In this document: piece by piece, positions 204-36,622 of the stretch
Layout of the letters: each line of letters opens with the position of its first letter
How positions within the stretch are numbered: the stretch's first letter is position 1
Source: Liolophura sinensis
Lineage: Eukaryota; Mollusca; Polyplacophora; Chitonida; Chitonidae
Assembly (NCBI RefSeq): GCF_032854445.1
Contig: NC_088301.1
Location: 9,110,281-9,174,280 of the forward strand
Length of the DNA stretch: 64,000 bases
Direction of reading: 5' to 3'
Notes under the pieces: model-generated
The model's database searches: none
The model's input: only the letters and a program-made list of their open reading frames with translations
What the model was told of the DNA's origin: nothing
Position numbers and translations under genes: made by a program

Positions 204-709
204 CTGAAAAGATCCATGAAGGCGAGGCCTGGATTTGAGGATGAGGAGGGGATGTCTGGGACCAAGCTTGGCCGCCCACTTGTCCTATCCCCCGGACGAA
301 CTGTCACTACTAGAATTACCCCTAAGACAGACGCAAGCACGAGGGTAGAGATGTAATAGGCCGAGGCCCGAAGACCAATCTTTCCTGAAGACCGGATGTC
401 GATTTCGGCCGTAGCGCACAAGAGACTTGACACAACGATCGGGATTAACAGCATCTTCATACTCTGTAGGAAAAGCTCCCCGGGAAAACGAAGGTAGACA
501 ATCTCTGGCTGGCTAAGTTTGGGGTCTTTGGAGTTTAGGCCTAATCCAATGGCGACCCCAACAAGAACTCCAACCAACATAAGCAACACCAGCAAGTTGG
601 ACTTCAGGAAACCGACGAAACATTTTCGTGTGACAGACTTGGGCAGCCATTTGCGATCCCTTTCCTCTGCGTTCCTAACAAGGTCATCCTTCGGATTAAG
701 GGGCTCCAT
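204..709 (-). CDS. SLC1A: SLC1/EAAT-like transporter copy A, first coding exon
   Basis: This exon encodes residues 1-168 plus two bases of codon 169 of a sodium-coupled SLC1-family (excitatory amino acid transporter-like) membrane protein. The Met at 707-709 starts [17 protein letters not shown]. It is followed by TM1 (about residues 38-58), TM2 after the [18 protein letters not shown] segment, the family hallmark [14 protein letters not shown], and TM3 ending in VTVRPG. The donor is CAG|GTAAAC. Length and phase match copy C exactly (506 nt, phase 2). The reading frame is intact and the start codon is preserved, unlike copy B. Family assignment is firm; orthology to a named EAAT is not attempted. 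The rest of the gene is outside the window, so its core residues cannot be read. Confidence 0.9.
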
Positions 710-3655: not shown

Positions 3656-4076
3656 CATAGTGCATAACTAGGTCTATACAGACGAGCCTGACGAGCATAA
3701 CCAGGTCTATACAGACGAGCTTGACGAACATAACTAGGTCTATACAGGCGAGCTTGACGAACATAACTAGGTCTATACAGACGAGCTTGACGAACATAAC
3801 TAGGTCTATACAGACGAGCTTGACGAGCATAACTGGGTCTATACAGACGAGCTTGACGAGCATAACTAGGTCTATACAGGCAAGCTTGACGAGCATAACC
3901 AGGTCTATACAGACGAGCTTGACGAGCATAACTAGGTCTATACAGACGAGCTTGACGAGCATAACTAGGTCTATACAGACGAGCTTGACGAGCATAACTG
4001 GGTTTATACACACGAGCTTGACGAGCATAACTAGGTCTATGCACACGAGCTTGACGAACATAACTAGGTCTATAAA
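3656..4076. repeat. 33-bp minisatellite, about 12.5 copies
   Basis: The unit is 33 bp (core CATAACTAGGTCTATACAGA), with few substitutions between copies. Because 33 is a multiple of three, long frames stay open on both strands, giving apparent 11-residue repeat proteins. They have no independent support as genes. The array sits between two inverted copies of a dispersed repeat. Confidence 0.95.
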
Positions 4077-4189
4077 GAAACTGTTACGCACTAAAAGAAC
4101 AAAAGAGTACACCGCTACAGACCGACTTGTTTTAGGCGCACAGCACATTGCCCATTATTAACGAGACAGTTTATTAATAAGCATTTTCC

Positions 4190-9607: not shown

Positions 9608-9782
9608 TCAAACGCGTGCTGTTCCCTGTTCTGTTTCTCCCTCACACAGGTCCTTTTCCGATTTAGCCGTCAACATTATCTCCCTTTCCGCCATTTTCTT
9701 TAGATCATGTCGGGAGAAATGTTCAATAACAGCTGCTCCAATTCCATCTCCTAATATGTTGATGGAGGTCCGGCAGTGCGCT
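9608..9782 (-). CDS. SLC1A: Copy B exon 8 (TM8 and C-terminus)
   Basis: Acceptor TTGTAG, then A completing the Leu codon, then [17 protein letters not shown]. Ala is encoded by GCG at 9,779-9,781. The cytoplasmic tail ends EQGTARV and stop at 9,608-9,610. 175 nt, as in copy C. Confidence 0.9.
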
Positions 9783-12700
9783 CTACAATAGGCAGTTAAA
9801 ACACCAGAGTTACAACGATTTTGTGCAAAAAGTGTTGCCTTTATACGTTAGTATTAAACTGTACAGATTCTCTGGTTTTATCCCTTATCTTGTTAAGTCT
9901 TTAATTACATTCTGATGATGGTTCTGATCGAGGAGGTCGATGGAGAAAAACCAATACCGATTAAAATCCTAACTCGTTCCACGCAAGAAAAGGATTTACA
10001 TAGTTGCACTTGGTAGAAACTGGGAGGCCCATGCAGGATTAAGAGATGTGAAATTTCTTAAGATCTATGCGTCGAAACAGACATTCGTATATCAGCCGTC
10101 AACCAATAAGGACGTCGCAGGTCAATAATCGCACGGCCAATTCGCAAAACGAAGTATAACACAAACCATACAAGAAAGAAGAAAGTACATGAAAATCGAA
10201 ATTAGGATGGAGTCATGCAAAGAGAAGCAATCAACAGTTTTCAAGACGCAAGGTATGGTCTAGGCGACTGAGTTAAAGCAGTGTTCAAATTGTGCTAGAT
10301 AATAAGTTGTTGATAATAGCTACGAAATACGTACAGGAACCAGTCGACAGCGAGCAGGGTGCTGATATCGTCCGTGGGCAGCCCCATCGAGGCGAGCATC
10401 ATGAGCATGGAGATCACAGCAGACCCCGGAACTCCGGCTGCTCCCATTGCGATTGACAGGGACAGAATACTGTGGAGAGGAAGGTTACGTAATAGCAGAG
10501 CGATACATGGAACATTTGATTTCTTTTTAAATTTATTAATATGTGTTTTAGGATATAACCTTACGTACAAAAAAACAAGAAACGTTCTCAGCTTTCTTTC
10601 TGGGAGGTAGCATCTCTCTAAACTACAATTATCCTGAAGCTTCGACTAGTGCCCTGGACTAAAGAAGCTTGCATCGATGACGATAAGGGTGCTAGCCGTC
10701 AAAACGACCCTGAAGTAAAGTCTGAATGAGGGCATTGAGGTGGTACACCGTTCGCTGTGAGTTCATCGATGAAGTCATTTTCAACAGTTTGCGACCATTG
10801 ATGGAATACATGCCTTAAATGGAGGGGTTAATTTAAGTTTATTGACATAACATTTCCCTTAAAACCAAAATATTTGTTCTAGAGCTCCTTTTCAAGTATA
10901 CTTTAGTTCAAGTCTTGTTATTCCGGTTGATGACCGCTTAATTTGATATACGTGCACCTTAGGCACATTTGGAACAAGGCACGTGACGTAACCGCTATAG
11001 GCTGGAGATCTATATTTCTGAAAGCTAAGCTAGGAATTTATTCGTCGAGACATTGGTGTGCCAGACGTTAACCAGGATGGATGGTCCAGGTCAATAATCT
11101 CAAAGCCAATTCACAAAATTCCCACTTTTTACACAAACTATCAAAGGATTAAGAAAGCATATGAAGTAGGAAATTAGGATATGTTCAAGGCGAATGAGTG
11201 AAATTAGTATTCATAACGTGCACCATCTCAGATGCGCTTTGATTGCAACTGTTCACACACATTAGATGTGGCGATCTAATTCAACACGATGAATACACCT
11301 GCCCCTGGCGGGTTAAGGGGGATTATACACAATCATGACGCAGAGCATCAGAGATTTTTGATGCTCTGCCCATATTCACTTACAAGAGAACTATACTCAT
11401 TGTTAAACTTTAGAAATTTAGAGTGAAGCTGTTTTACGAAATGGCCTTGGTTTTTTTTTTGCAATAATAACTTGTGAAAATGGTTAAACTCGTCACACAA
11501 CACATAATCTAACAAATGCTACACGGTGAGATGTATACACGCTATATGCAGGAACCTTCGGTATGTTGCTGTCCAAGAAGGGATAATTTAAAATGTCAAA
11601 ATGAAATGATCCCTCTTGTTGTAACATCTGCAAGAAAGGAAACCGCTTTGGTCTTTGTAGAAATATAGATCTAGATAACATGAACCAGCTGGAGTATCTG
11701 TGGTTTTCTTTAAATCCAGCAAAGGTGGGTAAACATCTTTTACAGCGTTTGTTATATATGGGTTGCTTAAAGCTAAAAGAAAGATGTCAGAAACACATCT
11801 AAGATTTAACAACGCTGCCTAGATTGCCAAGCTATGTGTTAGACGCGAACAACTTGGTGTCAAAAGAGACGGGAAAAAGCAAGCGTTCGGTACATTTTTA
11901 CCTTATAGTGACCAGCTGCCCAGCCGACAGTGGAATTCCGTTAAGCTGTGCTATAAAGATGGCCATCATGGTGAGGTAGAGACAGGCGCCGTCCATGTTG
12001 ACAGTGGCCCCTACAGATGCTGTCAGTTTTGTAACTTGCGGGTCCACTCTATTCCTTTCCTCGAGGCACTTAATGGTGACTGGCAGAGTGGCACTACTGT
12101 GAAGAAGATGTAGATGTAACATAAGAACAGTGTCCTCTAGAAAATGGCCAAGGATTACCCAAGACTATATATTTTATACAGGATACCTCCAAATAAATAG
12201 ATTCCCGTAACTATGTCTGGTTTGTTAGCACAAAATGTCGTGAAACGATAAAAATTATTCATACTTGTAATCCAGAATGGTCTAGGAAAATTACGTGTTT
12301 TCAAAACGTCCCACTGGGCCCTACCTGATAACATCATGGGAAAAGAGACAAAGCAGGGTTGAGCAAGTATTCTATGTGAATGCCGGTATATTACATTCTG
12401 GGGCACCAGGACTACCCAAAGTGTAACACACACTGCATAATGGTCAGAACGGACTCAAATAAAGCCACCCGTAATGTAATATTTATTACAATATGGATGG
12501 AAAATGCTATTCATTACATAATAATGCAACACTATATAGGTAGCAACTGCTGCCCATAATGTAATAATACGGGTAGCAAGTGCTAACCACAGTTAAATAA
12601 TTCGGGATAAGGCGCTTAAAGTCATTGTGAAGGGTTTAGAAATTATTTTAAAAGCTTTAAAAATAGTAATCATTTTTGAACGTTTAAATATAATTTTGAA

Positions 12701-15700
12701 AATCAGACAAACACGTACCTTATCTAATAAAAAGACCATTGGTCATGGTTACCTACTCTCAGATCCAAAAGCGAAGAGCATAGCTGGTATCATACCAACT
12801 AAGAACTTGAGGGGATTTTTGCGTAGAAAAACCAGGTATAGCAGAGACAAAACAATAAAGCCGTGAATAAATAACCCGACCAGCACAGTCACAGTAAAAA
12901 TGGCCAGATCTTTGAAGGTTTTTGTTGGGTCGTCCATCTCCGCTAACTTGGATGCAATGAGAAAAGCGATTCCAACAGGCGAGTACCTGTTAAAACGAAC
13001 ACAACCACGGCATGGAAAACATGGAAAACTTTTTATGATTCTTCCAGCTAACCACCGTCATTAAATCGTTAACCTGCAAAAATCTGCTTCGTATAAATAA
13101 TAGCTGTCTATAGGTTAGTGTGTTCGTATGGTTGCGCCGAGCGCCAGAATATTTCACTTCAGTTCTAAGTTGGCATTCAGTTTCTTAGGTAAATGAATCG
13201 AAGGGTCAGGAATAAACCATCGATCTTTAGTAAATAACTGACCAACTTTCGCACAAGGCGGTCTGATTTAACAATCGTGTATCAATAATCTGCATTAGTC
13301 AAATAAAGTGGCCCACATTCCAAATGCAATCTTTTGTAGAAATTTGTGAAGAGATATATCTAAAAGGCTCACAACAGGATTATTGCTCTAATGTAAATAG
13401 ATGTAGTTTTGATCAAAACATACCATTAATATGAAAATTATAATGGAGTACACGGGAATCGGTGACTTTTTTCCAAGACCTGTCTACAATATGTTGATCC
13501 ATGTGCAGTGCGTTGCTATGTTGCAATGAAATAGATTGCAAGTTTAACTACCGTATTTCACCTAAAGTTTAGTTGTTTTCAAGTGACACATGTTCCTTGA
13601 TTCTGATTGATTCCTCCGCCATATGTGATCACTGACGGATTTGTTGTGAAATTTAATTAATTTCTGATTAAACGAGCCTAACATTTTAAGGCCTTTCTAT
13701 GCTTGTGGAACTGCAGTTATACAATTTAAAATACAATGTATCTGTTGTTGATATGTCTCTTGTTAAAATGTTAGGCTATGTCCAGCGTCCAAGCCAGTCA
13801 TTCAGTCTGAGATATAAGTGGAAATGTGGAATTACTCACCAGATGAAAATTGCCACGAGCTTAAAACTGACAACTCTCACAGCCTTAAAAAAATCTAAAA
13901 AAGGCTTTGCCTCCCTTCCGGAAGCGGACGTGACGCAGCCAAACAGTATGGAGGCTACAACCAGGCCCATCATGTTGATACCATCCACGTTTTCAACGGT
14001 CAGTTTTACCTGTCCTCGCTCCTTTGCATCTTCGTCTGAAATTTCAACGAATTTTAAATCAACCTGAATTTACAGTATGTCAGTGATATCTTATGATTCG
14101 CCTAGTTTTGTTGTGTGAGCGATGATGGATATTTTGTTGTTAAACCGTATGTACCTTGACATGTGTAATCAAGATAATTTACTATTGGTCTATACAATCT
14201 TTGTGCTGAATCAATGGATTATGTGCGCTGGAATAATCTGCTACATTAACAATACATTTTAGCAACGCTTAAATTTAACAGCTAAAGGCAGACACAAAAC
14301 TGTAGCCTGGGCTCCGTTTTCCCGTGCTCACATAGCATTACCTATACACGTATTTTCCGTGGAAAGCAGTACGCTGTGTGATAGCTATGTCCAAATTTAG
14401 CGATGATGAAGCGGGACAAAAAGGACTAGAACTTGGTTTATTTCATACCTTTCAAAATGTATTGTAAAATTTTTTTTTCATGAACACAAAGCCCCAGTAG
14501 ACAAAAAGACAAACGCCTCCGCCAGGTTCTACATCCACATCACTTTATATTACGTCCTCACTTGGGCTCACTGTGAACTCATGTTCAGCTCATGCAGGCT
14601 TACCCATACACGGAGAGGACAGCCAACAACCTGCGGGATGTTCACGGGTTTCACCCGTGCTCTGATGGGTTTTCTCCCTCCATAATGCTGGTCGCCCTCG
14701 CATCAGTGAAATATTCTGCAGAACGACGTAAATCACCAATCAAACAAATAAAATTACGCTTCGTAACAACGACCAAAATGATGTCCCATACATTATATAG
14801 AAAGTTGCAATCTACATCTAGTGGCATTGAACACGTAGGGGTGATGCGTCATATACGTGAGAAATCTCATGTATATATAACGCATTTTCTCATGTATATG
14901 ACAATATATACGCATGTATATGACAATATATACGCATGTATATGAGCTATTTGGAGTAATTGGTTGTTCGTTAGAAACCATGATCAAAATAATTCCTCGT
15001 CGTCATATGGCTGAAAAATAGCTAACCATGACCTTAAACCCCAAGCACGATGTATGTATTTTTCATGTTGAAATTTCTTATTACATAAATATTTACGAAA
15101 AACGATGCGTTCGTATATCAAATTGCAAAGGGGCTGGATGCAATCACCTCTAACTTGATTGAAGTTGGACAAAAACAATTTTATATTATTTATACACAGG
15201 TTAAGTATAGGGAAATAGTTTATCTTCTTCAGTGACAAGTATGGAAATCATATACAGTAAGAGAAATAATAAACACCGCATAGTGGATAAGAGCTTTTTC
15301 ATTTTTTTTTAAGATTTATTTTAAAACATTCGTTAGGGGCTGTGGAATAGTTTCATCCCGCCGCCATACAAAGATTTGATTTGTGTCTCAACTCGGTCGT
15401 TGCTGTTTTTCTCCAAAATTCATGTTTGTTTGCAAATCCCAAACTCAGTGGGTTAGATCACAGAATAGATAGTGAGTACCACGTCAGAGTGCTGATTTTC
15501 TCGTGTGTAACTCTGGCCTAAATTGCCTATTGACATAGTTAGCAATAGATCTTCTGACCGTCCAGTTTTACAGTAGCGCTGTTATTGGTGCCCTATATTC
15601 TGGTCTGCTGGGTAAGAATGGCTGTGTCCTGGACCTTATTATCACCCCATTATACTGAAGATGAAAGCAGCTGACATATTGGACAAAATGCGTGTCTTAC

Positions 15701-18700
15701 CACTGATATTTTTCACAGCGTTCAAAACCGAGGAAAAAGGTGACGAGTTGCCTATAGTCGTCGCTCCATCGCCTGTCACTTCTCTAGTCTTCTTCTGCAT
15801 GAAAAGTTGAATATTGAATAAATAAGCATATTGTCTTTTATGACAAGCTTGGACAGAGTTCTGAGGTACCAATCTGCTATCACAATGGATATGTGGACAA
15901 CACTGTGTCAGTAATCCATAGACCAGTGATGTGTTATAAATTTCTATGAAAATAACTGCAATTGTTTTACTTAATTCTGATTAAAGTATACTTCTATGAA
16001 CATTTACAGGTGTTTGTAAAGAGGTTGATTCCTGTCTTGGTCGCTTTCTTACTTCACAAACTTTCATTGTGAATAGATTATCAATACCACGTGGCAATGG
16101 TCGCATTTACATGAACCGTTAAAATAAAACTTGACTGAGGTACATGTAAATGAATTGACAAGAAGCCGGATTTCAACATTACGTGTGACCGTTTGCCACT
16201 ATTACACTGTTCTTGCAGCCCTGGTTTCGTTGTCCATGCTATATTCTACTCAATGTACTCGGACGGTTCCGACAGCGTGCGTGGTGCCTCTCATCCAATG
16301 ACACTGCACTAGCGTATTCGGATAGCAATGCTAATTGGAGACACGCTTGTTTGATCTGGTCGATTTAGTTTGGATTCGTTGATGAACTTTATCTAGAGGA
16401 TTGACAAACTCAGTCAACAAACATGTGATTTTACCTTTTGTATGTATTAACATTGAGAAAGAAAAACAAAATAAACAAACCATAACATCTTTCATTTGGC
16501 GGAACTTAAGGGACTCGTGTTTTATAAACAAATAACAGACCACAGATGTAATTTCTTTCGACATTTGAAGTGCGTTTTGTGTATATGTAAGTCATGAAAA
16601 CAGATGTTAATGCAGACAATGACTTGATAGCTGAGTGTGCTGGTGTCACGTATGGAGTTCAGTACTGTGACTGGTTAGTCAAAATAGTATTGGCAGCCTC
16701 TTCTCAATAAAAAATGGGTAGTATAATGCAGGTGGTAAAAATGTCGTACAGCTTAAATCTCAGCACACAATGGAACAACGTGTATCAAAGCGCTTACCGA
16801 TTTGAAGCAAACTTCAACAAGGTTGTCCGGGACCATGTTCCTGTGAAATATAATTCAAGTTGGTGTTATGATGCAGTCTTTCGATATATACAGGATGGAC
16901 GTACTTCTCACTTGTAGAGTAACCTTGTCTCTGTAATGCATGTACGCTAATATTTAATGACACTGGTGATATTGTCTTTATCTGTATATCTATATGCTGA
17001 ACCATTGATGTTACATGTTCACACCCAGTGGTCGCTGGTCCCCTTCCACCCACACATAAACCAGACTGCCATCATTTTGCTGAATTATTGGTGTGTGCAA
17101 CGTAGCTCCAAATAACCAACCAAATAAATAAATACGATCCTGTAGAGTAAGTTATATGTGTTTTGAAGAAATGCCTGTATTTGTTTCAGTTATTAATATT
17201 TATTAATATAAAGTAACAAATTTAACATTTAACAGCATTTAACATAACTGTACATACATAGAGTGTGGTAACGTGATAAGACAGGAAGATTTAAACTATA
17301 CTTATTATTTTATGAACTTTTTTATGGATAGTAAACTCTGGAACACTGAACTTTTATCGATATATTTATAAATCTCGGTGGAGGCGGGAGGGGGGGGGAG
17401 GGGCTCCGTGGCTCAGTTGGTTAGCGCGCTAGCGCAGCGTAATGACCCAGAAGCCTCTCACTAATGCAGCGTAGGTTTCCCCCGGGCTCTGCCCTGTTTC
17501 TTCCCACCATAATGCTGGCCGCCGTCGTATTAGTGCAATATTCTTGAATAGGGCGTAAAACGCTGGATATAAGTATATTTCAATCATTGTGGTTGCTTAT
17601 TAACCCACCCCTTTTTGTGTACATATGGGTTTAGCTCCATTACTGAATGACTGATAATGTCAATATAGTATTTGACATTTCATAGTTGTTGCTACAGTTA
17701 TAAGAAATCTGGTTTCCTGTAAGTACAATTTTCCAGTATGAATGTAGATCATGATAGTCACTTGCTGTTTAATAATTGTAATAACTGGTGACGTTTAAAA
17801 CAGTAACATTACCCGAGTTGTTACTAGGTCAGTTCTTGAGAATTATAATTTATCGTTAGTTCTCATTAGAAGCTGAAGGCATTTTTTGCATTTAGGACAA
17901 GATGTAACCATAATTTTATTCTTGAGATCATTCTGAGATAGTAGTGAGTGGTGATTCGCACGTAGTAATAGTCTCTGAAGTCGGTAAAGAGTAGGATTTG
18001 TGCGATTATAACAACATCAGTCCACCAATTTAGCATTGCGTTGTTGTTGTTGTGGATATTCTCCGGCTGTGAAATGCTTGGCTTGAAATCTAAGTGTTAG
18101 ATTTGATAGATTGAGCTACTCATGATGGACTCGATTTAAATGTACATTTTTCTTGAAGTTTACTTTTGAAAGTTAGGTCCATCCGTTTTCTTGTGCCAGC
18201 CATTTTGCGCGTAAGCAAGTTTCATGCATATGGTAATTTTTATACATATACATCGACTATTGTAGATGTGAGATAAGCTTTTTAATTAACGTCATGAATA
18301 AAGTGTAAGAGGGGCACTCAGTAATTACGTCATTATCAGTGACTGGCATGTTCGTGCGTCTACGGAGATCACAGTGACTGTTTGGTGCTGATTAGCTCAC
18401 CAGAGTTCAATACCCATCATTGTCTTTTTGTAACCGTTATTTTTGCATAATCCTCATTCATTGTCTTAAGTCAATATATAATGAAAGATTTGTTTTTGTA
18501 TGTGTAATTAAGATGCACACTACATGTGAACGATCGAGGCCATTCACCGTGTTAATTTGCAATCGTGCAAGTCGCAGACGATCAGACAGATCATGTTTCG
18601 TAATTCTTGTTTTCTACCATCTAAGATGATTGTTAATCTGAACTGCCAGGCACTGCATCAGTAGCTGCGTTGCTGTAGCTCTCTTGGGTTTTTTTCGCTA

Positions 18701-20922
18701 TCTTGTGGTTTCTCCCTCACTTCTGTACAACACCTCCGTCCACCAACTCCTAATAAATCATAACAGCTTTGTCAGATGGTCTACATGTGTTTATTCCCAC
18801 ACCTTTACAAAAGGGAATTATTACGTCTTTTGGTGATTTTAATTGTTGATTTTTAAGTCTGAAATTACTTGAGAAGTTTTAAACCTTTGGAGGGAAAAAC
18901 TTATTTTCATGTCAATGATATTGATAGGATTTTAGCACGTTTGTGACTGACGAGCAGCTATTTTGCTGGTTATCCAATCACATAACTGGATTCCGTACTT
19001 AGGCTCCGCCTACTTTGTTGAAAATTGATAAAAAGAGGGCCAGAAAACTGATGAGACGGTCTCAAAGGCCGAACGGTACACATGGAACGTATCTGTGCTA
19101 AAGCCAAAATGTACTCTAATAACTCGGCAAAAACCTACCATAAGGTGTTGATCAAGTGGTGCTAAACCATTTCTGTGAATTCTTAAAGCTGGATGCCATT
19201 AGGTTCAGTCCTTGGCCGATGCTGAGCTGACGGGTTTGTCGTTAGTGACAGCCAAAGTTTCCAAGTGCAGATGCACTAGAGATCCACGATCCAAACGGTT
19301 CCTGTCGTCAGTGATATCTTCAGTTTCTGCGTGCAGATGCACTTGGATTCACGGACGATACGTTGCACTTGGATTCACGGACGATACGTTGACGGATCTC
19401 TAGTGAAATTTCGGCATTGTTTAAAGTCAGTATGGATTGAGCCTCTGTAGACACCAGGTGAAGTGTCAAGAGTTCAGACGCACTAGGATCCACAGGGAAT
19501 ACGTTGATGGGATCGGCCGGTGTAGAATCTTTCTAGAGGAAGTTTAGGCGGTGTTTAAACGTTAGTGTGGATAGAGTCTAAGTACATACCAGATGATGTA
19601 TCAGGAACTGAGGAGATTCTGGGGTAATAGGTTCACCATAATGATATATAGTGCTGTGTTTTGATGAATTATAAACACCAGCACATCTCTATCATCAACG
19701 TCCTTGGACACAGGACTAGTTTAACGATGAACTAAATATTCTGTTTGGACCTAGATCATTTGATATTTATTTGGAATTCATATGGAAGCCGGATTATTTA
19801 AATAAGGAAGAATGGAATCTACCTGGAACTCAAAATCATGTCGCGGTGCCCCCACAAGTTTGGTGTACGCCTAAATTTTTACATCATCCCGTGGTTTGTA
19901 CCAAAATCCACAAGGCGCTACCAAAGGGGGTATGAGTTCACGAGAACTGGTACTCACTGTAGACTTTTAGTGTAAAAAGGAAATACAGTTGCTCTACACT
20001 TGAACAGTGATAAGGATTGGAAGATATACCCGCTACAATACTATGATGGATTAAAGCAATGGCACTGTAACATCCGACAGTCTTAATACGCCAGATGTGC
20101 ATTTAAGACTTGTCGAAAATGAGACAATAGCATTTTAACAGATAAACCAACCGCAAACCATCAAGCGCATTCTGGGTTCGAACATACACTCATTTTGAAA
20201 AATTGGTTATGAGTGGTGATGAGAATCATAGTGACTGTACAACCCATTTAGCCTGGCCCGACGTGACGCATGCGCCAGAAAATAGATACTACTATGCTTT
20301 ACCGAAGATAAGTGCAGCTAAAAAAGGTAACATGCATAAATGATAAGAGCAATGTTTACCTGAAGAGATCCATGAAGGCGAGGCCTGGATTTGAGGATGG
20401 GGAGGGGATGTCAGAGGCCAAGTTTGGCCGCCCACCTGTTCTATCCCCCGGACGAACCGTCAGTACTAATATTATCCCTAAGAGAGACGCAAGCACTAGG
20501 GTAGAGATGTAATAGGTCAGAGCCCGAAGACCAATCTTTCCTGAAGACCGGATGTCGATTTCGGCCGTAGCACACAAGAGACTTGACACAACGATCGGGA
20601 TTAACAGCATCTTCATACTCTGCAGAAAAAGTTCCCCGGGAAAACGAAGGTAGACAATTTCTGGCTGGCTAAGTTTGGGGTCTTTGGAATTCAGGCCTAC
20701 CCCAATGGCGATCCCAACAAGTACTCCAATCAAAATAAGCAACACGAGCAAGTTTGACTTGATAAAGCCAACACAACAGTCTCTCGTCACCTTCATCTCG
20801 GACGCTGAGCCGTGCCTCTTAAAACGTCCACCTTCGACGATGTCTTTCTTTGGAATAAATGGCTCGGTTATACAAGGGTGGGCTGGGGGTGGTGGGGTCG
20901 GGGTGGTTGGGTACACACCCAT
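9608..20922 (-). CDS. SLC1A: SLC1/EAAT-like transporter copy B, complete, 8 exons
   Basis: A sodium-coupled SLC1-family plasma-membrane carrier of 544 residues. Exons in transcript order: 20,360-20,922; 16,798-16,840; 15,701-15,794; 13,840-14,035; 12,753-12,986; 11,902-12,096; 10,335-10,469; 9,608-9,782. All junctions are GT-AG and in phase. Seen: TM1-TM3 in exon 1, a loop with sequons NSS and NIS, TM4-TM5, HP1 loop [12 protein letters not shown]7 NMDGA, HP2 GAAGVPGSA, and TM8 with R491, N495 and D499. Unusual: Ala488 stands where the family has the Asp that binds the substrate amino group. Leu418 replaces the coupling Glu of animal glutamate transporters. Ala414 replaces the Thr of NMDGT. 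The ancestral start codon is lost and translation probably starts at 20,922. The frame is fully open, so this looks functional. Substrate is unknown; I infer a non-amino-acid anion. Confidence 0.88.
9783..10334 (-). other. Copy B intron 7
   Basis: Donor CCT|GTACGT. A block at 10,040-10,260 also occurs, diverged, in intron 6 (11,035-11,230) on the other side of exon 7. Confidence 0.7.
10335..10469 (-). CDS. SLC1A: Copy B exon 7 (HP2)
   Basis: Encodes [18 protein letters not shown] and onward to TLLAVDWF. This is the HP2 hairpin (GAAGVPG motif), which gates the substrate site, and the start of TM8. Acceptor CTCCACAG; 135 nt, phase 1 in and phase 2 out. Confidence 0.92.
10470..11901 (-). other. 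Copy B intron 6
   Basis: 1.4 kb, no other gene seen. It holds a perfect 11-bp hairpin (11,340-11,350 with 11,359-11,369, 8-nt loop), not kept in copy C, and the second copy of the exon-7-flanking repeat. Confidence 0.6.
11902..12096 (-). CDS. SLC1A: Copy B exon 6 (HP1 end, TM7)
   Basis: Starts with the last base of a Ser codon, then [15 protein letters not shown], then [24 protein letters not shown] departs from the usual NMDGT, and Leu (CTC at 11,973-11,975) replaces the Glu of animal EAATs. 195 nt, matching copy C. Confidence 0.92.
12097..12752 (-). other. Copy B intron 5
   Basis: AT-rich, no separate feature seen. Aligns with 30,162-30,954 in copy C, including a GTAATGTAATATTTATTACA block. 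Confidence 0.6.
12753..12986 (-). CDS. SLC1A: Copy B exon 5 (TM5, TM6, HP1 start)
   Basis: Encodes [19 protein letters not shown], the long [19 protein letters not shown] helix, and [13 protein letters not shown] through FGSES, splitting the HP1 Ser codon. Acceptor TTAACAG, donor GTAG|GTAACC; 234 nt. Confidence 0.92.
12987..13839 (-). other. Copy B intron 4
   Basis: 853 nt, colinear with copy C 31,189-32,048. Nothing else recognised. Confidence 0.6.
13840..14035 (-). CDS. SLC1A: Copy B exon 4 (TM4)
   Basis: Acceptor AAATTTCAG|ACGAAG. Encodes [33 protein letters not shown] and [12 protein letters not shown] nearer upstream CAG (AATTCAG|GTTAAT) is rejected because it would put TAA in frame. 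196 nt. Confidence 0.92.
14036..15700 (-). other. Copy B intron 3, with SINE remnant
   Basis: 1.7 kb. Contains a family-1 SINE remnant (14,565-14,752) at the same place as one in copy C intron 3. Near 14,870-14,945 there are repeated ATGTATATGACAATATATAC units. Confidence 0.6.
14565..14752 (+). mobile_element. SINE family 1, old copy shared with copy C
   Basis: GGGCTCACTGTGAACTCATG, CCTGCGGGATGTTC, CCATAATGCTGGTCGCC and AATCAAACAAATAAAA. It has the same position and similar lesions as 32,790-32,985 in copy C, so it predates the gene duplication. Confidence 0.75.
15701..15794 (-). CDS. SLC1A: Copy B exon 3 (extracellular loop)
   Basis: Acceptor TTCATGCAG. Encodes [29 protein letters not shown] and IS. 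Holds two N-glycosylation sequons (NSS and NIS) in the TM3-TM4 loop, where EAATs are glycosylated. 94 nt. Confidence 0.9.
15795..16797 (-). other. Copy B intron 2
   Basis: 1.0 kb, colinear with 34,236-35,387 in copy C. Nothing else recognised. Confidence 0.6.
16798..16840 (-). CDS. SLC1A: Copy B exon 2 (43-nt micro-exon)
   Basis: Acceptor TATTTCACAG, then G completing Arg, then [14 protein letters not shown], then donor TCG|GTAAGC. It corresponds to the NMFPENLVQACFQQ-type segment of EAATs. Without it the exon 1 to exon 3 join would hit TGA. Confidence 0.88.
16841..20359 (-). other. Copy B intron 1, with about 2.85 kb absent from copy C
   Basis: Both ends align with the 686-nt copy C intron 1. 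About 17,190-20,040 has no counterpart there. That part contains an internally deleted SINE (17,399-17,565), a doubled 26-bp unit (19,340-19,391), and an inverted pair CACTAGAGATCC (19,275) and GGATCTCTAGTG (19,394). I see no long coding frame. Confidence 0.6.
17399..17566 (+). mobile_element. SINE family 1, internally deleted
   Basis: The head GGCTCCGTGGCTCAGTTGG and TTAGCGCGCTAGCGCAGCG are intact. The middle is missing between the B-box region and the GGTTTCCCCCGGGCTCTG block. The 3' core is CCATAATGCTGGCCGCCG. Confidence 0.85.
20360..20922 (-). CDS. SLC1A: Copy B exon 1 (TM1-TM3)
   Basis: Donor CAG|GTAAAC. The ATG at 20,920-20,922 follows an in-frame TGA about 20 nt upstream and gives a proline-rich leader of about 18 residues not found in A or C. 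The codon homologous to their start Met is ACC (Thr). An alternative start is Met43, just before TM1. Otherwise co-linear with A and C through FMDLFR. Confidence 0.85.
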
Positions 20923-22746: not shown

Positions 22747-22828
22747 CCACCACCACTTGAAACTTCATAGGTTATTGATACAAAAATTCTGCTCTGTTTT
22801 TGAGTCATTGCCCCGATTGCCACAGGCA

Positions 22829-22948
22829 AATTTGACTTGATAAAGCCAACACAACAGTCTCTTGTCGCCTTCATCTTGGACGCTGATCTGTGCCTCTGAA
22901 AACGTACACCTTCGACGATGTCTTACTTTGGATTGAGGGGCTCCGTAA
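22829..22948 (-). pseudogene. SLC1A: Truncated copy of the copy B first exon
   Basis: The minus strand reads TEPLNPK, stop, DIVEGVRFQRHRSASKMKA and [10 protein letters not shown], then breaks into unrelated sequence at about 22,829, inside TM1. It is the 5' end of the copy B first exon, with an in-frame TAA after NPK and ACG in place of the start codon. It is joined to a duplicate of the copy B promoter region. No other exons follow, so it is not a gene. Confidence 0.85.
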
Positions 22949-27892: not shown

Positions 27893-28067
27893 TCAAACGG
27901 GCACTATTCTCTGTTCTGTTTCTTCCTCATACAGGTCCTTTTCCGAGTTAGCCGTCACAGTTATCTCCCTTTGCGCCATTTTCCTTAGATCATGTCTGGA
28001 GAAATGCTCTATAACAGCTGCTCCAAATCCATCCCCTAATATGTTGACGGAGGTCCGGCAGCGCGCT
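27893..28067 (-). CDS. SLC1A: Copy C exon 8 (TM8 and C-terminus)
   Basis: Encodes [19 protein letters not shown] and a charged tail ending RIVPV. The Ala codon GCG is at 28,064-28,066 and the stop is at 27,893-27,895. 175 nt. Confidence 0.93.
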
Positions 28068-31000
28068 CTACAATAGGCAGTTAAAACACCAGAGTTGTAA
28101 TGATCTTGTACAAAAAGTGTTGCATTTATACGTCAGAATTAAGGGATGTGAAATTTCTTAAAATCTATGCGTCGAAACAGACATTCATATATAGGCCGTC
28201 AACCAACAAGGACGACCCAGGTCAAAACTCGCAAGGCTAATTCCCAAAACGACGTTTAAACCAATCCCCTAAAATCTAAGAAAGTATAGAAAGTACGAAA
28301 ATAGGACGGAAGAATGCAAAGAGAAGCAGTCAACAGTTTTCAACACGCAAGGTTCCAGGCGACTGAATGAAAGCAGTATTCAAATCGTGCTACACTATAA
28401 GCTGTCGATAAAAGCTACGAAATACGTACAGGAACCAGTCGACAGCGAGCAGAGTGCTGATGTCGTCCGTGGGCAGCCCCATGGAAGTGAGGATCATAAT
28501 CATGTAGATCACTCCGGTCCCCGGAACTCCGGCTGCTCCCATCGCGATCGACAGGGATAGGATACTGTGGAGAGGAATGTTACGTAAAAGCAGAATGATG
28601 CATGAAACGTTTTTTTTTTACTTATTTTATTTATTAATATGTCGTTTAGGATATAACCTAACGTACAAAAGGACAACAAAAATTCTCAGCTTTCTTTCTG
28701 GGAGGTAGCATGTCTTTGAACTACAATTATCCTGAAGCCACTTCTAGCGCCCAGTCTGGAAATAAAGTAGCTTGCATCGATGACGTCAAAGGCGAAAGTT
28801 GTCAAACGACTTTGAGGAAAAGTCTGAATGAAGGCATTGAAGTGGTACTGCATACCCAGTGGGTTCATCAATGACGTTAGTTGTAAAAGTTTGCGACCAT
28901 TGATGGAATACATACCTTAAATAGAGGTGTTAATTAAGTTTTTTAACATAACGTTTTTCAATGCACTTAAAACCAAAATATTCGTTCTAGAGCTCCTTTT
29001 CAAGTAGTCTTAAGGTTAAGTTTGTTATTCTGGTTGATGACCGCTCATTTTGATACAGGTGCATCTTAAACACGTTTGGAACAAGGCACGTGACGTAACC
29101 ACTATCGGCTGGAGATTTATATTTCTGAAAGCAAAGCTAGGGATTTATGCGTCGAGACATTCGTATGCCAGCCGTCATCCAAGATGGTTGATCCAGGTCA
29201 ATAATCGCAAAGCCAATTCCCTCAAATTACTTTTTACACAAAGCATCAAAGGATTTGTTTAAGGCGAATGACTGAAATCAGTATTTAAATCGTGAACCAT
29301 CTCAGCTGCGCTTTGATTGCAACTGTTCACACATTAAATGTGGCGAGCTATTTCAACACGATGAATATTAAACCGGATTATACACAATCGTCAAGCAGTG
29401 CACCAGGGGTTCTCGCTGCTCTGTCCATATTCACTTACAAGAGAACTATACTCATTGCAAAACTTAAGTACCTTAGAGTGAAGGCGTTTGATGGAATAAC
29501 CTTGACACATTAGTTTTTGCAGTAATAACTTGTGACTTGGGTTGAAATAATTGTCATACAACACACAGGATCTAACAAATGCTACACGGTGAGATGTGTA
29601 CACGCCATATGCAGGACCCTTCGGTATATTGCTGTCCAAGTACGGATGATTTACAATGTCAAAATTGAAATGATCCCTCTTGCTGTAAAGTCTGCGAGGA
29701 AAAAAATCGCTTTGGTCTTTGTAGAAATATAGATCCAGACAACATTGAACCAGCTGGAGAATCTGTGGTTTTCTTTAAATCCAGCAAAGTGGGTAAACAT
29801 CTTTCACAGTCTTTGCTCAATATGGATTGGCTAAGGCTAGCGGAAAGACGAAAGAAACTCATCTAAGATCTAACAACACTGTCGAGATTCCCAAGTTATG
29901 TGTTTAGGCGGGAACAACTTGGAGTGCAAACAGGCGGGAAAGAGCATGCGTTCGGTACATTCTTACCTTATAGAGACCAGCTGCCCAGCCGACAGTGGAA
30001 TTCCGTTAAGCTGAGCTATAAAGATGGCCATCATGGTGAAATAGAGACTGGTGCCGTCCATGTTGACAGTGGCCCCTACAGACGCTATCAGCTTGGTCAC
30101 TCGCGGGTTCACTCCATTCTTTTCCTCGAGGCACTTAATGGTGACTGGCAGAGTGGCACTACTGTGAAGAAGATGGAGATGTAACATAAAAACAGTGTCC
30201 TCTAGAAAATGCCCAAGGATTACCAAAGACGAAAGTTCTTATGAAAGCTATGTGTTTTAAAACTTTCGACTGAACCCTACCTGATAACATCATGCGTTAA
30301 GAGACAAAAGCAGGTTTGAGCAAGTATTTCATGTGAATACGGGTGTATTACATTATGGAACGCCTTGATGTAGCGCTCATAAACATGTATGGATCAGGAC
30401 TGCACATAGTGTAACACACATGGAATAAAGGTCAGAATGCACTCAAAGAGGCCACCCGTAATGTAATATTTATTACAATATGGATGGAAAATGCTATTCA
30501 TTACATAATAATGCAACACTATACAGGTAGAAACTGCTGTCTATAATGTAATAATACGGGTAGCAAGTGCTAACCATAGTGAAATAATTATTACGTTTTG
30601 GGATTTTATTACACTGTGGGTGTCTACAGTCCTGGACCGAGCGCCTTAGCATCGAGAGAGTCTGCTTCATAGCGGATGTAATAACGACCTCATGGAAAGA
30701 GGGCAAATGCAGTCATTTTGGTATTAATCAGTTTGACCTGTGAGTGGGTTAAATGGAGTGCCGACGTTCTACTTATTCTGTATTTGTAGTTTTAATTCGG
30801 GATAAAGCATTTAAAATCATTGTGAAGGGTTTAGAAATTATTTTCAAAGCTTAAAAAATGGAGGTAATTTGTTAACGTTTAAAAATAATTTTGAAAATCA
30901 GACAAACACGTACCTCATCTAATATAAAGACCATTACTCATGTGTAAAGCTTACCTACTCTCAGACCCAAAAGCGAAGAGAATAGCTGGTATCATACCAA

Positions 31001-33235
31001 CTAAAAACTTGAGGGGATTTTTGCGTAGGAAAACCAGGTATAGCAGAGACAAAACAATAAAGCCGTGAACAAATAAGCCGACCACCACTGTCACAGTGAA
31101 AATGGCCAAATCTTTGAATGTTTTTGTTGGGTCGTCCATCTCCGCTAACTTGGATGCAATGAGAAAAGCGATTCCAACAGGCGAGTACCTGTAAAAACGA
31201 ACACAACCACGGCATGAAGAACAAAGCACACATGCAAACCACACATCTTTTTATGAATCTTCGAGCAAACCACCATCATGAAATCGGTAACCTGCAAAAA
31301 AAACTGCTTCGTATAAATAATAGCTGTCTATAGGTTAGTGTGTTCGTATGGTTTGAGCCGAGAGCAGGAATATTTCACTTCAGTTCTAAGTTGGCAGTGA
31401 CTTTCTTAGGTAAATGAATCGGAATGCCAGGAATAAACCATCGATCTTTAGTAAATAACTAACTTTGCCACAAGGTGGCCGGATTTAAAAATCGTGTATC
31501 AATAATCTACAATAGTCAAATAAAGTGCCTCACATTCCAAATGCAATCTTTTGTAGAAATTTGCGAAGAGATATATCTAAAAGCGCTCAACGAGATTATT
31601 GCTCGAATGTGAATACATGTAGTTTTCATCAAAACATACCATTAATATGAAAATTATAATGGAGTACACGGGAATCGGTGACTTTTGCAAGACCTGTCTA
31701 CAATATGTTGATTCTTGTGCAGTGCGTTGCTGACTTTGTTGTAATGAAGTACAGAGTGATATAGACTACAATTTTAACTACCGTATTTCACCTAAAATTT
31801 AGTTGTTTTCAAGTGACACATTTTGCTTAATTCTAATTGATTCCCCCGCCATATACGACCACTTGCGTATTTTTTGTGAAGACGAGACTAACTGTTGGCA
31901 TCAAAAGAATCATTCTGGAAGTGCAGTTATACATACAAAATACAATGCATCTATTGTTGATATGTCTCTTGTTAAAATGACAGGCTGCGTCTAGCGTCCA
32001 AGCCAGTCATTCAGTCTGAGATATAAGTGGAAATGTGGAATTACTCACCAGATGAAAATTGCCACGAGCTTAAAACTGACAACTCTCAGAGCCTTAAAGA
32101 AGTCTAAGAAAGGCTTGGCTTCGTTTCCAGAAGCGGAAGTGACGCAGCCAAACAGTATGGAGGCTACAACCAGGCCCATCATGTTGATACCATCCACGTT
32201 TTCAACGGTCAGTTTTACTTGTCCTCGCTTCTTTGCATCTTCGTCTGAAATTTCAACGAATTTTAAATTAACCTGAATTTACAGTCTGTCAGTGATATCT
32301 TATGAATCGCCTAGTTTTGTTGTGTGAGCGATGATGGATATTTTGTTGTTAAACCGTATGTACCTTGACATGTGTAATCAAGATAATTTACTATTGGTCT
32401 ATACAATCTTTGTGCTGTATCTATAGATTATGTGCGCTGGAATAATCTGCTACATTGACAATACATTTTAGCAACGCTTAAATTTAACAGATAAAGGCAG
32501 ACATAAAACTGCAGTCTGGGCTCCGTTTTTGCCGAGCACACGTAATCTGACCTATACACGTATTTTCCGTGGAATCCATTAGGCTGAGTGATAGCTATGT
32601 TCACGTTTAGTGATAAGTGCACTTTGGGAAGCGGGAAAAAAAGGACTAGAACATGGTTTATTTTTGATTTTTCAAAATGTATTCTAAAATTAACGGCACA
32701 CAGTTTTAATGAACACAAGGCTCTAACAAACAAGAGACAAACACCTCTGCCAGGTTCTTCTACAGCCGCAGTACTTTACCTTTTGTCGTCACGTGGGCTC
32801 ACTGTGAATTCATTTTCAGCTCCTGATGGCATACCTGTACACACGGAGTATGTATTATTTCCTGCGGATGGTCGCGGGTTTCACCCGTTCTCTGATCGGC
32901 TCTCTTCCACCATAATGCTGGCCACCGTCGTATACGTGAAATATTCTAGAGTACGGCGTAAACCACAAATCAAACAAATAAAATAAGGCTCCGTTACAAC
33001 GACCTAAATGATGCTATTTTTTATTTTGTTGTAGAGAAAGGTGCAATGTACATGTAATGGTATAGCACACGTAGAGGCTATGCGTCATTTACGTGAGAAA
33101 TCTCATGGCGCATTTTCTCATGTATATGACAATATATACGCATGTATGTGATCTATTTGGTTGTTTCTTTCGAGACATGGTCCAAATAATTCCTTGTCGT
33201 CATATGGCTGAAAAATTGATAAGCACGACGTTAAA

Positions 33236-33378: not shown

Positions 33379-36300
33379 TACAAGGTCCCTGGGATATGGA
33401 AGAGGCCGGATGCAATCTCCTCTAACTTGATTGAAGTTGGATAAAAACAATTTTATTTTTTTCATGCGCGGGGCAAACATACGGAAATAGACAGTTTATT
33501 TTCTTCAGTGACAAGCATGGAAATCATATACAGTAAGAGTGAAATAATACATACTGCGTTGTGTACACGAGCTTCTTCAATTTTTTTTTGAGATTTATTT
33601 TATTTAGGTGTAAACATCTATAAACAAGCAAAATAAAAAACGGACAAAAAGCTTTCTTTACACATAGAGCTGAATGAACAGGAGGCAAATGTCTTATAAT
33701 CGTTTTAGTTTTACTGGAATTCCACCTAATGCTTATTAATGATTCACATTATTCCCTATGTACCGGAGGCCATGTAGGCAGCTTACAAAACGCCAGGTAG
33801 AAATCATGCGATGAACCGCACGAGTTTCCTCCCCTGGATAATTGACATCATGTGTGCAGTATTGTTTCTTTTAGCGAACAGAAATAAAATAAGTTTAATG
33901 TATTTAAAATACACATTATGAAGAATATAACTTCCGTTTTCCCTAATTTCAGAATGATCACATTGTCAAAATACGGTTTTCATGTGCCCCGAGGAGAATT
34001 TCTGTTCCATGGTTGTTGTTGTCCTTTTTCTGGTCTATCGGGTTAGAATGGCTGTGTTCTGTGCTCATACTGGGCCTTATTATGACCACAATCTACTGAA
34101 GATGAAAGGAGCTAAGATATGGGACAATATGCTTGTCTTACCACTGACGTTTTTCACGGCGTTCAAAACTGACGAAAAGGAAGACGAGTTGCCAATAGTC
34201 GTCTCTCCATCGCCTATCACTTCTCTAGTCTTCTTCTGCATGAAAAGTAACATATGTATGAATGAGCATATAAATGATCAGTGTTTGACGTCACTTTAAT
34301 TGCCTTTATGACAAGCTTGGCCAGAGTTCTGAGGTACCAATCTGCTATTACAATGGATATGTGGACAACACTGTGTCAGTAATTCATAGACCAATGATGT
34401 GCAATAGATTGCTATTAACATAACTGCAATTGTTTTACCTAACTCTGATTAAAGTATACTTCTATGAGCATTTACAGGGAGTTGTAAAAACAAGGTTGAT
34501 TCCTTTCTTGGTCACTTTCTTACTTCACAAACTGTCATGGTGAACACATTAATCAATACCACGTGGCAATAGTTGCATTTATGTGAACCGTTAAAATAAA
34601 ACTTGACTGAAGAACATATAGATTAATTGACAAGAGGCCGGATTTCAACATAACGTGTGACCATTTGCCACTATTACACTGTTGTTGCAGCTCTGGTTTC
34701 GTTGTCCATGCTACATTCTACTCAGTGTACTCGGACGGTTTCAACAGCGTGCGTGGTGCTTCTCATGTAGTGACACTGCGCTAACATATTCGGATAGCAA
34801 TGCTAATTGGAGACACGCTTGTTTGATCTGGTCGACTTAAGGTTGATTCATTGATAAACTTTGTCTAGAGGACTGACAAACGCAGTTAACAAACAGCTAA
34901 TCTTAACTTTGTAACTCTCATTTGTATGTATAATTAATACTGAGAAGAAAATAACTAGATAAACTATAACGTTTTTCATTTGGCAGAATGGGGAGACTCG
35001 TTTTTCATAAGCAAACACCAGAACCCAGATGTAGTTTCATTCGACATTCGGGGAAGCGCATTTTGTTTGAAATCCATGACGACAGGTGTTAATGCAGACA
35101 GTGGGACTTGATAGCTGAGTGTGCTGGTGTCACGAGTTCAGTACTGTGATCGGTTAGTCAAAATAGTATTGGCAGCATCTTCCCAATAAAAATAAGTAGT
35201 ATAATGCCGGTTGTAAAGATTTCATACAGCTTAAATCTGAGTACATTTTGGAACAACGTGCATCAAAGCGCTTACCGACTGGAAGCATGAATCCCAGTGC
35301 AGTTTGGAACAACTTGCATCAAAGCGCTTACCGATTGGAAGTATAAATCTTAGTACACTTTGGAACAATGTACATCAAATCGCTTACCGATTTGAAACAA
35401 ACTTCAACAAGATTGTCCGGGACCATGTTCCTGTGAAACATAATTTAAGTTGATGTTATGGTGCAGTCTTTCGATATATAGACGATAGACGTACTTTTCA
35501 CTTGTAGAATAACCTTAACTTTGCGAGGCATGTACGCCAATACTTCATTAAACTGATGATACTGGCTTTATCTGTATATCTATATACTGAACCATTGATG
35601 TTGCAGGTTCCCACCCAGTCGTCGCTGGTCCCTTCCACCCCACACATAAACCAGGCTGCCGTCATATTGCTGAAATATTGGTGTGTACAACGTAGCTCCA
35701 AATAACCAACCAAATAAATACATACGATCCTGTAGAGTAAGTTATATGTGTTTTGAAGAAATGCATGTATTTCTTTTACATGCATATTTATTAAAGACTA
35801 TGATGGATTAAATCGATGATACTGTAACACCCGACAGTCTTGAGAGGCCAGATGTGCATTTAAACCTTGTCGAAAATGAGACAACAGCATTTTAACAGAT
35901 AAACCAACCGCAAACCATCAAGCCATTTCTGGTTTCGAACATGCACTCATTTTTAAAAACTGGTTATGAGTGGTGCTGAGAATCATAGTGACTGTACAAC
36001 CCATTTAGCCTGGCACCACGTGACGCATGCGCCAGAAAATAGATATTACTATGCGTTACAAAAGGTAAGTGCAGCTAAAAAAGGTAACATGCATAAATTG
36101 TAACACCAATGTTTACCTGAAGAGATCCATGAAGGCGAGGCCTGGATTTGAGGATGGGGAGGGGATGTCAGAGGCCAAGTTTGGCCGCCCACCTGTTCTA
36201 TCCCCCGGACGGACCGTCAGCACTAATATTATCCCTAAGAGAGACGCAAGCACTAGGGTAGAGATGTAATAGGTCAGAGCCCGAAGACCAATCTTTCCTG

Positions 36301-36622
36301 AAGACCGGATGTCGATTTCGGCCGTAGCACACAAGAGACTTGACACAACGATCGGGATTAACAGCATCTTCATACTCTGCAGAAAAAGTTCCCCGGGAAA
36401 ACGAAGGTACACGATTTCTCGCTGGGTCAGTTTGGGGTCCATAGAATTCAGGCCTACCCCAATGGCGACCCCAACAAGAACTCCAACCACCATAAGCAAC
36501 ACCAGCAAGTTGGACTTCAGGAAACCCACGAAACATTCCCTTGTGATAGTCTTGGACAGTGATTTGCTACCCCTCTCTTCTGCGTTCCTAACAAGGTCAC
36601 TCTCCGGATTAAGGGGCTCCAT
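27893..36622 (-). CDS. SLC1A: SLC1/EAAT-like transporter copy C, complete, 8 exons
   Basis: An SLC1-family carrier of 525 residues, built like copy B. Exons in order: 36,117-36,622; 35,388-35,430; 34,142-34,235; 32,049-32,244; 30,955-31,188; 29,967-30,161; 28,430-28,564; 27,893-28,067. All junctions are GT-AG and in phase. Seen: TM1-TM3 in residues 1-169, sequons at N199 and N212, HP1 [10 protein letters not shown] (356-365), TM7 NMDGT (391-395), HP2 [11 protein letters not shown]8 [12 protein letters not shown] (469-480). Sodium-site N476 and D480 and the carboxylate-binding R472 are kept. Ala469 replaces the amino-group-binding Asp, and Phe399 replaces the coupling Glu. Known for the family: homotrimer, elevator mechanism. 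Inferred: the substrate lacks an alpha-amino group. The first exon is a mosaic of copies A and B. Confidence 0.92.
28430..28564 (-). CDS. SLC1A: Copy C exon 7 (HP2)
   Basis: Encodes [18 protein letters not shown] through TLLAVDWF, donor CCT|GTACGT. 135 nt. Confidence 0.93.
28565..29966 (-). other. Copy C intron 6
   Basis: Colinear with copy B intron 6. A block at 29,130-29,230 resembles one in intron 7 (28,140-28,300), so exon 7 is flanked by direct repeats here too. Confidence 0.6.
29967..30161 (-). CDS. SLC1A: Copy C exon 6 (HP1 end, TM7)
   Basis: Encodes [15 protein letters not shown] and [19 protein letters not shown]. Phe (TTC at 30,038-30,040) replaces the EAAT coupling Glu. 195 nt. 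Confidence 0.93.
30162..30954 (-). other. Copy C intron 5
   Basis: 793 nt, colinear with copy B intron 5 plus an extra block of about 150 nt around 30,595-30,745. No gene seen. Confidence 0.6.
30955..31188 (-). CDS. SLC1A: Copy C exon 5 (TM5, TM6, HP1 start)
   Basis: Encodes [19 protein letters not shown] through [14 protein letters not shown]; donor GTAG|GTAAGC. 234 nt. Confidence 0.93.
31189..32048 (-). other. Copy C intron 4
   Basis: Colinear with copy B intron 4. Nothing else seen. Confidence 0.6.
32049..32244 (-). CDS. SLC1A: Copy C exon 4 (TM4)
   Basis: Encodes [33 protein letters not shown] and KLVAIFIW; acceptor AAATTTCAG. 196 nt. Confidence 0.93.
32790..32985 (+). mobile_element. 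SINE family 1, old copy shared with copy B
   Basis: GGGCTCACTGTGAATTCAT, CCTGCGGATGGTCGCGGG, CCATAATGCTGGCCACCG and CAAACAAATAAAA; the counterpart of 14,565-14,752. Confidence 0.78.
33236..33374. repeat. (CA)n microsatellite with (CAGA) and (CG) interruptions
   Basis: About 139 bp of CA repeats. It directly follows a family-2 SINE tail (CATATGGCTGAAAAATTG, ACGACGTTAAACC). The long open frames across it are low-complexity artefacts. Confidence 0.95.
34142..34235 (-). CDS. SLC1A: Copy C exon 3 (extracellular loop)
   Basis: Encodes [19 protein letters not shown] through VKNVS with sequons NSS and NVS. 94 nt. Confidence 0.92.
34236..35387 (-). other. Copy C intron 2, with triplicated donor region
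   Basis: 1.15 kb. The first 112 nt of the intron (35,276-35,387) carry two extra copies of a 56-bp unit containing the splice donor. The rest is colinear with copy B. Confidence 0.7.
35388..35430 (-). CDS. SLC1A: Copy C exon 2 (43-nt micro-exon)
   Basis: Acceptor TGTTTCACAG; completes Arg, then [14 protein letters not shown]; donor TCG|GTAAGC. Phase 2 in, 0 out. Confidence 0.9.
35431..36116 (-). other. Copy C intron 1
   Basis: 686 nt. Both ends match copy B intron 1, which is about 2.85 kb longer. Confidence 0.7.
36117..36622 (-). CDS. SLC1A: Copy C exon 1 (TM1-TM3)
   Basis: ATG at 36,620-36,622; [17 protein letters not shown] as in copy A. The 3' part is identical in protein to copy B ([16 protein letters not shown]). 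506 nt, donor CAG|GTAAAC. Confidence 0.93.

Follow-up and report, generated by a model that had tools for sequence, protein, structure and literature searches.

A clade of chiton SLC1 proteins that lacks the TM8 aspartate: candidate dicarboxylate carriers in Liolophura sinensis

Introduction

In EAAT3, the amino group of the substrate is held by an aspartate in TM8, D444 (D394 in GltPh), according to PMC12036983 and PMC10160106. The latter also describes K+ as replacing the amino group at D444 and T448, and E374 as the proton carrier. The two substrate carboxylates are held by R447 and N451 in published work. What an SLC1 protein carries, and with which ions, once this aspartate is gone is the question raised by a locus of the chiton Liolophura sinensis. 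Here, we focus on a stretch of 64,000 nucleotides, called the window, which is part of contig C7 of the 609 Mb genome. It holds three tandem SLC1 genes on the minus strand: the first exon of copy A and the whole of copies B and C. An initial annotation had read Ala for the TM8 Asp in copies B and C and proposed an animal SLC1 lineage for acids lacking an amino group, such as dicarboxylates.

Gene models and genomic setting

The coding frames of copies B and C consist of eight exons each, separated by GT-AG introns, and encode 544 aa (B) and 525 aa (C) (Table 1). On contig C7, exons above the Pfam cut-off lie at 9120602, 9122184, 9123035, 9130711, 9138694, 9140249, 9141231, and 9146450. The remainder of copy A lies to the left of the window and carries Ala394 and Glu276 as well. 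Copy Z lies left of the window on the same contig, copy D on contig C4, and copy E, which is diverged, on C11.

The window also shows several repeats. A 56-base unit occurs three times at 35228-35396. The repeats cover the copy C mini exon at its 3' end, together with its donor, which leaves three copies of the donor region. Minisatellites are present at 3662-4078 (33-base units, 12.6 copies) and 61662-62066 (40-base units, 10.1 copies).

Table 1. SLC1 genes and coding exons in the window, with the sites discussed in the text (residue numbers of GltPh, EAAT3, or EAAT1 as indicated in the text).
Feature	Position	Strand	Sites and remarks
Copy A, first coding exon	204..709	-	Whole copy A protein equals P0001 over 525/525 aa
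Copy B, span	20922 down to 9608	-	
Copy B, first coding exon (N-terminus, TM1-TM3)	20360..20922	-	Leu for GltPh S93/EAAT3 T102 at 20497-20499
Copy B, 43-base mini exon	16798..16840	-	
Copy B, extracellular loop exon	15701..15794	-	
Copy B, TM4c-TM5 exon	13840..14035	-	
Copy B, exon ending at HP1 tip	12753..12986	-	Glu for GltPh R276/EAAT3 S331 at 12758-12760
Copy B, TM7 exon (NMDGACLYL)	11902..12096	-	Ser for EAAT1 P392 at 12015-12017; Ala for T314 at 11985-11987; Leu for Q318/E374 at 11973-11975
Copy B, HP2 exon	10335..10469	-	Gly at position 357, 10424-10426
Copy B, last coding exon (TM8, C-terminus, stop)	9608..9782	-	Ala for GltPh D394 at 9779-9781 (GCG); His for M395 at 9776-9778; NCBI model P0003 identical over exon
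Copy C, span	36622 down to 27893	-	
Copy C, first coding exon	36117..36622	-	Leu for T102 at 36254-36256
Copy C, mini exon	35388..35430	-	
Copy C, extracellular loop exon	34142..34235	-	
Copy C, TM4c-TM5 exon	32049..32244	-	
Copy C, exon with HP1 tip	30955..31188	-	Glu for R276/S331 at 30960-30962
Copy C, TM7 exon (NMDGTSLYF)	29967..30161	-	Ser for P392 at 30080-30082; Phe for Q318/E374 at 30038-30040
Copy C, HP2 exon	28430..28564	-	
Copy C, last coding exon	27893..28067	-	Ala for D394 at 28064-28066 (GCG); Arg for M395 at 28061-28063

Loss of the TM8 aspartate

The aspartate is lost in all six genes of the clade: position 394 is Ala in A, B, C, D, and Z (codon GCG in A-D, GCC in Z) and Thr in E. 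The earlier reading of Ala (GCG) in copies B and C is thus correct, and the loss is larger than was stated, as four more genes are also without Asp. The Arg, Asn, and second Asp described as retained are R397, N401, and D405 (GltPh numbers), each present in 6/6. TM8 exons were read for 15 SLC1 genes of Liolophura. Six are without Asp, and nine keep it (paralogues N1-N5, one gene on C11, two on C6, and one on C3).

A wrong splice acceptor as the source of Ala394 is ruled out. The intron beside the TM8 exon matches that of the Asp-keeping paralogues in phase and place, the alternative AG shifts the frame, and the NCBI models agree.

Two sets of Asp-keeping genes in the same genome have features of their own. 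Paralogues N2 and N3, from a second SLC1 cluster on C7 at 8.32-8.37 Mb (L014-L018), carry Gln at the site of E374, are altered at T314 and T398, and are partly ASCT-like. L027 and L028 (C6) and L029 (C3) form a diverged SLC1 group with the TM8 Asp kept (RDRIRSTSN, RDRMRSSSN), without the Na1 Asp after the TM8 motif (FSH/VSH) and without the HP1 serine run, and with NADG for NMDG in L027 and L028. Judged by these motifs, this group may have lost its Na1 site.

Family placement and selection

The proteins belong to the SLC1/SDF family: a profile finds the SDF domain (PF00375), which P0001 carries, and the AlphaFold2 model (pLDDT 82.3, pTM 0.80) has the elevator-type SLC1 fold, its nearest PDB structures being EAAT2 7xr6_A (E 2.3e-29) and EAAT3 9p4x (TM 0.96 by target length). 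The six chiton genes group in one clade (100/100 support) in a maximum-likelihood tree of 52 proteins, inside animal EAAT-like proteins with other molluscan sequences. The clade stands apart from DctA and from mosquito DCT; the chiton and mosquito proteins form separate starred clades. In this tree E is a long branch, and its gene model is without the loop exon; N2 is placed as sister to the clade by a weakly supported, unstarred fork (88/92), and N3, whose joined exons gave a broken sequence, was left out of the alignments and the tree. Shared origin with mosquito DCT is ruled out by the separate clades. Horizontal transfer from bacterial DctA is ruled out by the position inside animal EAATs together with a score far under the DctA cut-off.

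In the profile search, five Liolophura members score 1071 to 673 bits, and the next match is the Asp-keeping paralogue N4, P0005, of the same species at 526 bits; among the best 120 listed matches there was no clade member from another taxon. The proposal of an animal SLC1 lineage is not supported in that breadth, as the lineage so far comprises one chiton among these best 120 listed matches. Literature searches on Liolophura transporters, invertebrate SLC1 proteins, and DctA or D394 found no earlier account of a chiton SLC1 clade without D394.

The genes of the clade are under purifying selection: over the ten pairs among A, B, C, D, and Z, dN/dS (NG86, whole gene) is 0.13-0.37, and Z differs from A-D by a dS of 1.2-1.4. 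These values bear on the idea that the genes are decaying after tandem duplication, their function being lost. The NCBI model of copy B (P0003) omits 41 aa of exon 12753-12986, HP1 tip included, either by alternative splicing or by model error, and upstream of copy B lies a broken, truncated SLC1 first exon with an in-frame stop (~22815-22943, minus strand), a duplication leftover. However, the frames are open over 525-544 aa in A, B, C, D, and Z, the ligand residues are kept, and the change is common to six genes across a deep split, E being ~50% identical to A. Decay is accordingly very improbable.

Accompanying residue changes

Further changes were scored in a table of 300 proteins, the best 120 listed of each of three homology searches, of which 295 lie outside the clade. 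Since this set holds the best matches listed and is mostly EAAT-like, any residue called invariant is so within these 300 proteins. The E374 equivalent (GltPh 318) is Phe in five and Leu in one of the six chiton genes, and Glu in 295/295 other listed homologues. The equivalent of T102, a Na3 ligand, is Leu or Phe in 6/6 (Thr in 295/295 of the others), and that of EAAT1 P392 is Ser in 6/6 (Pro in 295/295 of the others and in 31/31 bacterial SLC1 proteins). At the HP1 tip, the S331 equivalent (GltPh 276) is Glu or Asp in 6/6, and Ser, Ala, or Gly in 294/295 others; the sole exception is Asp in P0214, a match of the insect search with D444 kept. The HP1 acid depends on a splice (GSES/SS, the slash marking the junction) that uses GT-AG and keeps the frame in each of the six genes. 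D444 itself is Asp in 286 of the 295 other listed homologues and Asn in nine mosquito proteins. Five TM7 positions after NMDG, each fixed to 95% or more across 232 other proteins, carry a different residue in 6/6 chiton genes.

The remainder of the site is conserved. The equivalents of R447, T448, N451, and D455 of EAAT3 are kept, and the residues unchanged in 6/6 are, in GltPh numbers, R397, T398, N401, D405, S277, S278, N310, D312, Y89, and T92. Position 395 (R445) is Arg in 295/295 other listed homologues and also in the chiton genes, except for His in B.

A proposed carrier for acids without an amino group

Based on this pattern, it appears most likely that the six genes encode EAAT-derived elevator-type carriers for dicarboxylates or other acids that lack an amino group, with no K+ exchange and no EAAT proton site. 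We give this reading a probability of about 0.5. The most likely first substrate candidates would be malate, succinate, and 2-oxoglutarate. As R447 and N451 are kept, a dicarboxylate can still be held, and with D444 and E374 both lost, K+ exchange should be abolished. The proteins would thus hold both carboxylates of the substrate, leave an amino group unbound, and have given up K+ countertransport.

The acid at the HP1 tip may explain how the gate survives the loss of Asp394. In GltPh, R276 pairs with D394 (PMC6175574). EAATs have the arginine at 395 instead, and R445 contacts both S331 and D444 in an EAAT3 simulation (PMC3958442). The HP1 Glu or Asp of the chiton proteins would replace the TM8 Asp as salt-bridge partner of this gate arginine, and the gate would still work. 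On the simplest reading of the sequences, the partner of the gate arginine has switched sides, which would free the amino-group site and retain the gate. The EAAT1 counterpart of the E374-R447 pair, E406-R479, blocks HP2 closure in the apo state (PMC6769379).

Precedent comes from the mosquito transporters CuqDCT and AeaDCT, SLC1 proteins with N444/A448 that have been shown experimentally to transport dicarboxylates (PMC3737229). Their Km is 51 uM for succinate and 10.5 uM for malate versus 1.1 mM for Glu, and N428D, by restoring Asp, brings glutamate selectivity back (13.8 uM for Glu). EAAT3 D444S/T448A likewise carries dicarboxylates and no longer responds to K+ (PMC3737229). The initial suggestion of a substrate without an amino group is supported to this extent: the Asp is lost, the carboxylate set is kept in 6/6, DctA has Ser at 394 in the 13 genes examined, and mosquitoes offer a parallel.

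The suggestion is weakened by other observations. The swap is not isolated, the equivalents of E374, T102, P392, and S331 having changed too. Mosquito DCT and DctA have both changed the T448 equivalent, which the chiton proteins keep, and EAAT3 D444S alone carries neither dicarboxylates nor glutamate (PMC3737229). Asn or Ser may donate a hydrogen bond, whereas Ala cannot. Nor is a hydrophobic 318 confined to DctA: 3/18 Asp394-keeping bacterial proteins have Leu, Met, or Ile there, and one has Tyr. An acid at 276 also goes with a kept Asp394 (P0214, 1/295 listed). Finally, the HP1 acid could repel a dianion or, lying beside the amino-group site, serve an amino group.

This last point leaves room for an amino acid as substrate: the carboxylate would have shifted from TM8 394 to HP1 276, where Glu or Asp, alone or with Thr398 and backbone oxygens, would hold the amino group. 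Loss of Asp394 and an acid at 276 occur together in 6/6 genes, as against 1/295 acids in other listed homologues. The backbone oxygen of the residue (S331 O) already touches the substrate nitrogen in the EAAT3 simulations of PMC3958442, and Thr398, which also contacts this nitrogen, is kept. On the other hand, transport currents of EAAT3 are reportedly lost on any change of D444, Glu included (PMC10160106), the side chain of residue 276 need not face the ligand, and P0214 has Asp276 and Asp394 together. We regard an amino-acid carrier as unlikely.

With T102 and P392 changed, the proteins may depart in ion coupling and anion conductance from what the dicarboxylate idea would lead one to expect. 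These changes could point to a channel or sensor, in which coupled transport is lost or minor and a ligand-gated anion conductance is the main activity. P392V in EAAT1 is reported to raise Cl- flux (PMC8970671), and the chiton proteins have Ser at this site in 6/6. Also lost are the proton/K+ site E374 and the Na3 ligand T102, whose equivalent contributes a hydroxyl to Na3 in GltTk (PMC5110648). However, the Na1 ligands and most Na3 ligands (N310, D312, N401, D405, Y89, T92), as well as the carboxylate-binding residues, are kept in 6/6, which argues against a pure channel, since it would not need them. We regard this alternative as distinctly unlikely.

The rewriting of TM7 and HP2 around the site raises another alternative, a carrier for a different anion or zwitterion, such as a monocarboxylate, a sulphonate like taurine, or a larger metabolite; the five changed TM7 positions could reshape the pocket beyond the amino-group site. 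The set that holds two carboxylates (R397, S277, S278, N401) is nevertheless unchanged in 6/6, and such a substrate is decidedly improbable.

A more far-reaching proposal, tentative and rather doubtful, is that coupling has been rebuilt. The TM8 acid would have moved to the HP1 tip and double there as partner in the gate salt bridge and as new proton (or amino-group) site, and of the EAAT features the sites for K+ and the proton would be gone, along with one Na3 ligand and the proline of the anion gate. If so, the ion stoichiometry would be one not known in SLC1.

Significance

On sequence grounds, the chiton clade makes a second case, independent of the mosquitoes, of an animal SLC1 lineage that lacks D444, reached by different changes. 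The best reading is that it would represent an independent animal route to dicarboxylate carriage uncoupled from K+, and the mosquito precedent makes the dicarboxylate interpretation plausible. Should it be true, a switch to dicarboxylates would have occurred in SLC1 on three or more occasions (DctA, mosquitoes, chitons), and such transport would, as the tandem array suggests, be in use at scale in the chiton. The clade provides a natural experiment for finding the residues that tie SLC1 carriers to K+, H+, Na+, and Cl-, and offers five or more intact paralogues for comparison, with Asp-keeping paralogues of the same genome as controls.

Comparison with known systems

Mosquito DCT resembles the chiton proteins in being an animal EAAT-derived SLC1 protein that lost D444 and kept R447, N451, and D455. 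It differs in having Asn444/Ala448 and in keeping S331, E374, T102, and P392 (9/9 listed sequences); the chiton proteins have Ala or Thr at 444, keep Thr448, and changed the other four sites, and so lack the Asn444/Ala448 signature. This signature is present in nine listed proteins (P0143-P0145, P0148-P0151, P0153, P0162), among them proteins of Sabethes, Malaya, Uranotaenia, Topomyia, Toxorhynchites, and Wyeomyia, beyond the two species of PMC3737229.

For DctA (NF002461), a contig scan gave only close enteric relatives, and a subsequent phylum-wide search gave 19 matches above the cut-off, of which 13 were examined, one per genome. Ser394, which the initial annotation had given for DctA, is seen in 13/13, as are Gly357 and a hydrophobic residue at 318 (Met 7, Leu 5, Phe 1). 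Ala398 occurs in 12/13, and Asn405 and Thr356 are also found. DctA likewise has a new acid beside the lost Asp, Glu395 (12/13). The other bacterial SLC1 sample (n=18; 16 matches under the cut-off, L133-L148, and two more, with the partial L132 left out) has Asp394 in 18/18, and at 318 Leu, Met, or Ile in three and Tyr in one. The chiton proteins share with DctA the loss of Asp394, a hydrophobic 318, and Gly357, but have Ala or Thr at 394 with Thr398 in place of Ser394 with Ala398. With Ala/Thr394, Phe/Leu318, and Gly357 they are nearer to the DctA set than the mosquito set is, T398 excepted. Copy A does not reach the DctA profile (142.7 bits versus a cut-off of 513). NCBIfam scores were dropped as a guide to substrate, as the DctA and GltP profiles give 142.7 versus 134.2 bits for copy A and a similar near-tie, 161.2 versus 160.6, for the Asp-keeping control P0005.

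EAAT1-5 (SLC1A1/2/3/6/7) share with the chiton proteins the fold, the exon phases, and R447/T448/N451/D455, R447 being present in 6/6; identity to the Asp-keeping molluscan EAAT-like P0005 is 38-45%. They differ at D444 (Ala in five, Thr in one of the six), E374, T102, S331, and the EAAT1 P392 equivalent, all of which are changed in the chiton proteins. ASCT1/2 (SLC1A4/5) have the same fold, and E374 is replaced in both groups (Gln in the ASCT2 sequence). In ASCT2, however, the TM8 Asp is kept and Arg447 is lost (DRTTT), which is the reverse of the chiton proteins.
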